61,031 nt of DNA from the NCBI GenBank assembly GCA_029565735.1, contig JAKQNO010000066.1, forward strand, positions 1 through 61,031. Reading direction: 5' to 3'. This document shows, in pieces, positions 49,010 through 49,303 of this stretch. The notes beneath the pieces are model-generated. The model searched no databases. It saw only the letters and a list, made by a program, of their open reading frames with translations, and was not told the DNA's origin. The first letter of the stretch is position 1. Every line of letters starts with the position of its first letter. The DNA is from a bacterium. GTDB taxonomy: Bacteria > Oederibacteriota > PGYV01. The translations under genes were made by a program, and so were the position numbers.

Positions 49010-49086
49010 GGGCCCTTAGCTCAGTTGGTTAGAGCAGTAGACTCATAATCTATTGGTCGTAGGTTCAAGTCCTACAGGGCCCACCA
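49010..49086 (+). tRNA. tRNA with CAU anticodon, probably tRNA-Ile2
   Basis: 77 nt, full cloverleaf: acceptor GGGCCCT/AGGGCCC, D-arm GCTC/GAGC, anticodon loop CTCATAA, T-arm GTAGG/CCTAC, discriminator A and encoded CCA. The TTGGTC variable region and TTCAAGT T-loop resemble E. coli ileX more than elongator Met, so C34 is probably modified to lysidine by TilS. Elongator Met is the alternative. Confidence 0.93.
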
Positions 49087-49087
49087 T

Positions 49088-49132
49088 TTAAAATAAAAAA
49101 GGCGTACCTTGTGTACGCCTTTTTTATTTTAA
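49088..49132. terminator. Intrinsic terminator of the tRNA
   Basis: 20-bp perfect arms (49088-49107 and 49113-49132) with a GGCGTAC/GTACGCC core, A/T-rich outer pairs and a 5-nt loop, including T6. Confidence 0.93.
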
Positions 49133-49249
49133 GGCCCTGTAGGACTTGAATGGTTTTGACCGCGTCCAGCGGACGAAAAGCGAGTGGAGCGAGCGTCAGG
49201 TCAAAACCGGGGCCGACGAGGCGCAGGTAGCGCCGAGGTGGCCAAGTCC
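49133..49249. repeat. Palindromic element starting with an inverted copy of the tRNA 3' end
   Basis: GGCCCTGTAGGACTTGAA (49133-49150) is the exact inverse of tRNA positions 49064-49081. It leads into a nested fold: GGACTTG (49142-49148) with CAAGTCC (49243-49249), GGTTTTGACC (49152-49161) with GGTCAAAACC (49199-49208), CGTCC/GGACG and GGCGC/GCGCC hairpins. No ORF. Confidence 0.75.
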
Positions 49250-49255
49250 GATAAG

Positions 49256-49303
49256 AACAGAGGGACAGATGGTCGGATGCACGGAGGGACGGAAGGGAAC
49301 CAA
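49256..49303. repeat. GGACGGATGCAC-type low-complexity repeat
   Basis: Contains GGTCGGATGCACGGAGGGAC, the same family as at 16.4, 33.9, 34.2 and 34.5 kb. The remainder to 49368 holds no gene. Confidence 0.65.

Follow-up and report, generated by a model that had tools for sequence, protein, structure and literature searches.

Positions 49133-49249 of the window (by which we mean the whole stretch of 61,031 nucleotides that was analysed, from a Goldiibacteriota genome) are probably an old copy of a family of gene-less, mobile DNA elements that insert at the T loop of tRNA and tmRNA genes, a reading that we draw from sequence comparison. Members of the family measure about 85-200 nt, the copy in the window about 110 nt, and no gene was found inside them. 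Along the tRNA strand, the parts follow a single order: the tRNA as far as its TT, the segment from C56 to CCA, a trailer often containing a terminator, an inverted copy of the T arm, AA, a structured core, a second C56-to-CCA segment, and the host flank.

The element beside the CAU tRNA gene

ARAGORN reports one tRNA (CAU) at 49010-49086 on the + strand, which we take, judging by its sequence, to be probably the lysidine tRNA-Ile2 rather than a tRNA-Met. Exactly two inverted pairs were returned by a repeat search of the region: 49088-49107 with 49113-49132 (20 nt, 100%, loop of 5) and 49064-49081 with 49133-49150 (18 nt, 100%). The sequence-only reading had seen in the second pair an exact inverse of the tRNA end and had noted that 38 bp of stem could form with only CACCAT (49082-49087) bulged out; the two perfect pairs bear out both points. 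The element continues past 49150 with a structured core (49151-49242) and closes with what is left of a second, direct tRNA copy (49243-49249). The features of the locus are as follows.

49010-49086, + strand: host tRNA gene with CAU anticodon (ARAGORN; Rfam RF00005, 76 bits)
49066-49086, + strand: tRNA 3' end from C56 to CCA, 21 nt, duplicated directly at other, intact elements
49088-49132, + strand: intrinsic terminator of the CAU tRNA, between tRNA and element, a 20-bp perfect stem and then a T run; kept in both congeners
49133-49150, + strand: inverted copy of the tRNA T arm and acceptor, 5' arm of stem P1, 18 nt, perfect (repeat search); target-specific family-wide
49152-49161 with 49199-49208, + strand: stem P2 (folding; covariation in 8 of 10 P2 pairs)
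49163-49175, + strand: hairpin P2a, inside P2 (folding)
49180-49194, + strand: hairpin P2b, inside P2, with a tandem G.A motif (folding)
49211-49243, + strand: hairpin P3 (GGYC...GRCC), stopping at the junction with the direct tRNA copy (folding, covariation)
49243-49249, + strand: CAAGTCC, remnant of the second, direct tRNA copy and 3' arm of P1; the full 21 nt at intact elements (L021, L038, L044, L113)
49258-49296, + strand: unrelated dispersed repeat just beyond the element, present in similar form at several further sites of the genome

The predicted fold is a three-way junction, in which the inverted arm and the second direct copy form P1, P2 encloses P2a and P2b, and P3 is the remaining hairpin. 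In an alignment of eight elements, 87.9% of the cells pair and 19 of the 30 pairs have changed on both sides, with a covariation score of 0.489 versus 0.070-0.105 for controls with slid partners. P1 is Watson-Crick at 291 of 304 positions, and tandem G.A mismatches between GC pairs can be read in P2a and P2b of many copies. The covariance model matches 49138-49256 with 115 bits, the window sequence being among those used to build it. The share of G-U among predicted pairs is 4.7% in the elements, as against 10.2% in tRNAs and 10.9% in shuffles, and on the curated alignment G-U occupies 2 of 239 cells; this depletion suggests that the predicted fold matters as DNA. The repeat at 49258-49296, of the GAGGGACRGATGGTCGGATGCACGGAGGGACGGAAG type, has similar copies elsewhere in the own genome and in the congeners, on both strands, and is probably the reason for the shortened direct copy in the window.

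The tRNA and its terminator recur in two congeners (G001 and G002), as does the inverted copy, there with 1-3 substitutions, and no inverted copy was present in order-level relatives with a readable CAU tRNA. Because both congeners carry drifted versions, the inverted copy at 49133-49150 is, on these sequences, an inherited, decaying feature and no chimera. The sequence-only reading had envisaged relatives devoid of the copy and a chimeric assembly; an assembly chimera is ruled out by the presence of the copy in both congeners and of the family in dozens of independent assemblies, including the complete chromosome CP070780. The substitutions in the congeners break the pairing with the upstream tRNA, which is therefore not conserved. 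Misfolding of the transcript over the tRNA, put forward earlier as a reason for the copy, found no support, and terminator or RNA misfolding was rejected as the sole explanation, since in most elements the downstream second tRNA copy is the pairing partner of the inverted T arm, and many lack a terminator in between.

The same features can be viewed from the side of RNA, as a vertically spread structured RNA that acts in tRNA maturation or termination and controls processing by base pairing of its T-arm complement to the tRNA or the tRNA copy. The location, always downstream and on the tRNA strand, the strong covariation and the long pairing potential with the upstream tRNA would all suit such a function, which we nevertheless regard as very unlikely: G-U pairs are depleted, the pairing has decayed in the congeners at the window locus, exact second copies of the 3' end include the CCA, most tRNAs differ between congeners in presence or absence of the element, and the same core occurs at many tRNAs, tmRNA included, and in tandem arrays.

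Copies at other tRNA genes and empty sites

Each of 121 tRNA genes, 38 of them in the own genome (G000), 42 in G001 and 41 in G002, was compared with its own downstream DNA. Within 300 nt, inverted copies of at least 10 nt of the tRNA's own 3' end are found at 20 tRNAs, where 100 dinucleotide shuffles give a mean of 0.5 and a maximum of 3; for direct copies of at least 19 nt the figures are 13 tRNAs and 0 in the shuffles. A few of these copies stem from neighbouring isoacceptors in tRNA clusters. Comparing tRNAs with DNA downstream of other isotypes gave a background far below what they show with their own. Ten of the direct copies run from C56 in the T loop to the terminal CCA and have a length of exactly 21 nt; across the family, which amounts to 14-15 elements in the three congeneric genomes, the direct repeat measures 21 nt in most cases and 34-60 nt in some. 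In the own genome, intact copies lie downstream of about 8 of the 38 tRNA genes, namely tRNA-Arg(CCT), Thr(TGT), Val(TAC), Ser(CGA), Gln(TTG), Leu(GAG), initiator Met and the CAU tRNA of the window, whose direct tRNA copy is reduced to 7 nt; remnants occur at further tRNAs, such as Gln(CTG) and Ser(TGA). Inverted tRNA fragments beside other tRNAs, a search for which had been suggested from the window, are present at many tRNAs of these genomes.

Several tRNA sites are occupied in one congener and empty in another. At these sites the DNA beyond the second tRNA copy corresponds to the flank of the empty site, with identities of 97% over 89 nt (Thr), 92% over 89 nt (elongator Met), 89% over 79 nt (Arg), 84% over 58 nt (Leu) and 82% over 87 nt (Pro). 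The Leu site of G002 may have decayed rather than never been occupied, as it keeps AAAGGGGA where the inverted arm would be. The inserted unit sits between T55 and C56 of the tRNA and adds or duplicates the segment from C56 to CCA together with a few to about 60 nt of trailer, so that the upstream tRNA stays complete and the original host flank follows the second copy. The suggestion of an integration or inversion event at a tRNA attachment site is thus upheld in kind for integration, by the occupied and empty sites of the congeners, and was rejected for inversion, as there is no inverted segment of greater length. The empty site has no counterpart of the trailer and terminator that separate the first CCA from the core at the elongator Met of G001, so in that case both the tRNA end and the terminator came with the unit. 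The trailer is duplicated too at Arg (23 nt beyond the CCA) and at Gln-CTG (39 nt). It is possible that a staggered cut with duplication or a tRNA end carried by the element produced these arrangements, as both fit and the varying extent of the direct repeat makes them indistinguishable.

The inverted arm follows the tRNA beside which it lies. Its longest match has a mean of 9.9 nt with the own tRNA versus 5.9 nt with other tRNAs. In one deltaproteobacterial bin, cores 91% identical to each other stand behind tRNA-Ala and tRNA-Lys with the arms GGGAATCGAA and GGGGATTTGAA, each fitting its tRNA, and in one Omnitrophota bin cores with 89% identity stand behind tRNA-Ser and tRNA-Thr with the arms CAGGGATTCGAA and AGGAGTCGAA. 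Near-identical cores with arms that fit different tRNAs therefore argue that the core moves between tRNAs and that the arm is rewritten each time. On its inner side the arm ends uniformly (...GAA in most, ...CGAA); on its outer side its extent ranges from 8 to 18 nt.

Two further observations concern the same genomes. Upstream of tRNA-Val GAC (L150 in G001, L151 in G000), cores are embedded in additional, broken copies of tRNA-Val (two such cases in G001), and their junctions fall within the anticodon and T-stem regions and not at C56. Separately, a hairpin, TGGTAGACGCGGGTCTTTAGCCCGCG, recurs downstream of tRNA-Thr, Leu and Gln (L083, L021, L124, L126) and elsewhere, and represents a further dispersed repeat.

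Mode of insertion and candidate enzymes

In the mechanism that we propose, the core would act as folded single-stranded DNA, moved in trans by a recombinase or nickase that cuts T55|C56, and the folded core would be joined to C56 after the cut. The inverted arm would then arise by copying of the target strand, through fold-back synthesis from the core end, or alternatively by off-centre opening of a hairpin-capped end, while the left side would be refilled from C56 onward. Either origin of the arm would explain why the inner end of the inverted copy is fixed and its outer end varies; we infer the fold-back copying from this geometry. More broadly, and as a tentative proposal to which we give somewhat less than even weight, these elements may constitute a widespread class of minimal gene-less mobile DNA that rewrites its terminal stem from the host tRNA or tmRNA at each insertion, can use any tRNA and leaves it intact. 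A common host enzyme, perhaps XerC/D or one of replication or repair, would move it in the form of folded single-stranded DNA while the target strand is copied, a chemistry so far undescribed. If this were true, tRNA targeting would have been solved without an integrase gene, many tRNAs being accepted, each kept functional, and the recombination stem rebuilt from the target. That target sequence is copied into the end of the element would be a mechanistic oddity open to testing.

No mobilising enzyme was found at the motif-scan loci, where the elements hold no gene and have no recurrent neighbour gene family, and an autonomous, gene-bearing copy was sought at the examined loci and not found; the only direct copies of a tRNA end farther off belong to one tandem array and two tRNA clusters. 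The own genome has only two tyrosine recombinases, both of XerC/D type, one being an XerD above its own cut-off and below that for integron integrases, and the other a similar protein of 301 aa. Searches with the covariance model near the Y1 and Xer genes tested gave no adjoining element.

Transposition of a REP-like repeat by a host Y1 single-strand transposase (RAYT or IS200-IS605 type) would draw on enzymes whose substrate is folded single-stranded DNA, and a Y1 gene is present in all five Goldiibacteriota carriers and in 21 of 30 other carriers. It is missing, however, from 9 of these 30 (metagenome-assembled genomes, which may be incomplete) and present in four relatives with no covariance-model match; moreover, the Y1 genes tested have no adjoining element, and Y1 insertion proceeds without a direct repeat and without target copying, so that we hold this route to be improbable. 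REP sequences and REPINs with their RAYT (Y1) are likewise short, palindromic, gene-less and probably folded as single strands, but the present elements are bound to the 3' ends of tRNA and tmRNA genes instead of being scattered between genes, have direct repeats, and lack a universal Y1 partner.

The fixed right junction with a variable duplication length, and the folded, conserved 3' end with target sequence copied at the left junction, might also be expected of a structured RNA retrotransposed by target-primed reverse transcription from a bottom-strand nick at T55|C56, with target-site duplications of variable length. The reverse transcriptase domain RVT_1 is nevertheless absent from all 12 Goldiibacteriota genomes, including the own one and the five that carry the element, on which basis reverse transcription was rejected; it is also absent from 20 of the 30 other element-bearing genomes (present in 10 of 30), and G-U pairs are depleted. 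In our judgement, this alternative to movement as folded single-stranded DNA is very unlikely.

Two more systems resemble the family in part. Integron cassettes with their attC sites are similar in their working, being gene-poor units that end in an imperfect hairpin recombination site, form tandem arrays and enter at one fixed site, but the entry site of the elements is the tRNA T loop and their terminal stem derives from the target. No integron integrase exceeded the cut-off among the tyrosine recombinases of the own genome, of which the XerD, the one classified, lies below it, and the GTTRRRY core site is absent from the crossover, where the tRNA T loop supplies the junction G[T or A/G]N|CRANYCC. 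MITEs, too, are small, non-coding and mobile in trans; their constant terminal inverted repeats, shared with a parent transposon, differ from the arms of the elements, which are copies of the target tRNA with no constant family sequence, and the direct repeat is here the tRNA 3' end. No parent transposon was found. At the element loci, only the tRNA and tmRNA models of Rfam 15 reach their cut-offs, and the open-access full-text literature yielded no description of the element. Provisionally, we place it in no known family, its newness being drawn from failed membership tests and a limited literature search; its mode of insertion, with a forward and a backward copy of the end of the target tRNA at each site, likewise provisionally matches no known mobile element that we found.

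Occurrence across bacteria

Among 59 relatives searched with the covariance model, the element was found in five Goldiibacteriota genomes. A scan of 84,980 species with the 19-nt P2a motif of the core, GCCGAGCGAWTAGCGAGGA, returned 58 stretches with 64 motif instances, 50 of which are found on the same strand, at most 300 nt downstream of a tRNA (45) or tmRNA (5), as against 0 of 64 behind a tRNA or tmRNA on the opposite strand. The rest are at contig ends, in three more units of one tandem array, or in a few unrelated sequences. Annotated carriers include Omnitrophota, Deltaproteobacteria, Elusimicrobiota, Spirochaetes (with Treponema), Mucispirillum, FCPU426, Goldiibacteriota and others. In the 43 parsed elements, the direct copy begins at C56, with no further leftward match, in 33 of 38, and is complete to the tRNA end in 35 of 43. 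As elements are found at tmRNA genes too, the target is the T-arm and acceptor part common to tRNA and tmRNA. The tmRNA 3' ends that carry an element are L165, L175, L189, L191 and L207, and tandem arrays are found at L159, L166, L177, L190, L198 and L201.

Classical attachment sites include the T loop and 3' end of tRNA and tmRNA genes, where integration rebuilds the tRNA (PMC8371274). The elements might accordingly be scars of integrative elements, that is, attL/attR remnants of prophages or islands inserted by a tyrosine integrase at the tRNA T loop, with the core as leftover attP DNA. The family shares with such elements the target from T loop to 3' end, the rebuilt tRNA and direct repeats of the 3' end of att-like size flanking the insert, of which the window has the 7-nt remnant only. 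Integrative elements, however, bring an integrase and cargo, whereas the units described here have neither, measure about 110-180 bp, use many tRNAs and rewrite the inverted T-arm copy at each site, unlike attP sites. A single conserved core of near-constant size extends over several phyla and many tRNA species, never with cargo, the own genome has XerC/D-type integrases only, and the phage and plasmid collections gave no match to the element. No integrase gene, such as the sequence-only reading had advised looking for, belongs to the element. Attachment-site scars are thus an unlikely explanation, and a gene-less mobile family remains our preferred one.

The IMG/VR viral contigs gave seven matches to the core motif, six in unrelated coding-like sequence and one genuine element (L221), and no match to a longer pattern. 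The genuine one, on a contig of 32 kb, lies beside a tRNA tail and in tandem, with a tyrosine integrase domain at 25.6 kb of the record.

The 19-nt motif reaches several phyla as well as tmRNA, and much of the tRNA-adjacent repeat DNA of uncultured bacteria may belong to this element. For annotation, the footprint of an insertion can take the form of a pseudo-tRNA end or a hairpin behind a tRNA.

Two loci show other arrangements. Behind tRNA-His/Arg of one genome (L154/L198, G003:C40:64-67 kb), tandem units of about 250 bp each combine the tRNA-Arg(CCG) 5' half, reaching to the anticodon region, with the structured core. In a phylum-level relative (L016, G032:C75), a different element lies about 100-350 nt downstream of the orthologous CAU tRNA, with a 15-nt inverted copy of the variable loop and T stem, a direct copy of the 3' end, and a core that lacks the motif; it is perhaps a distant branch that uses another tRNA position.
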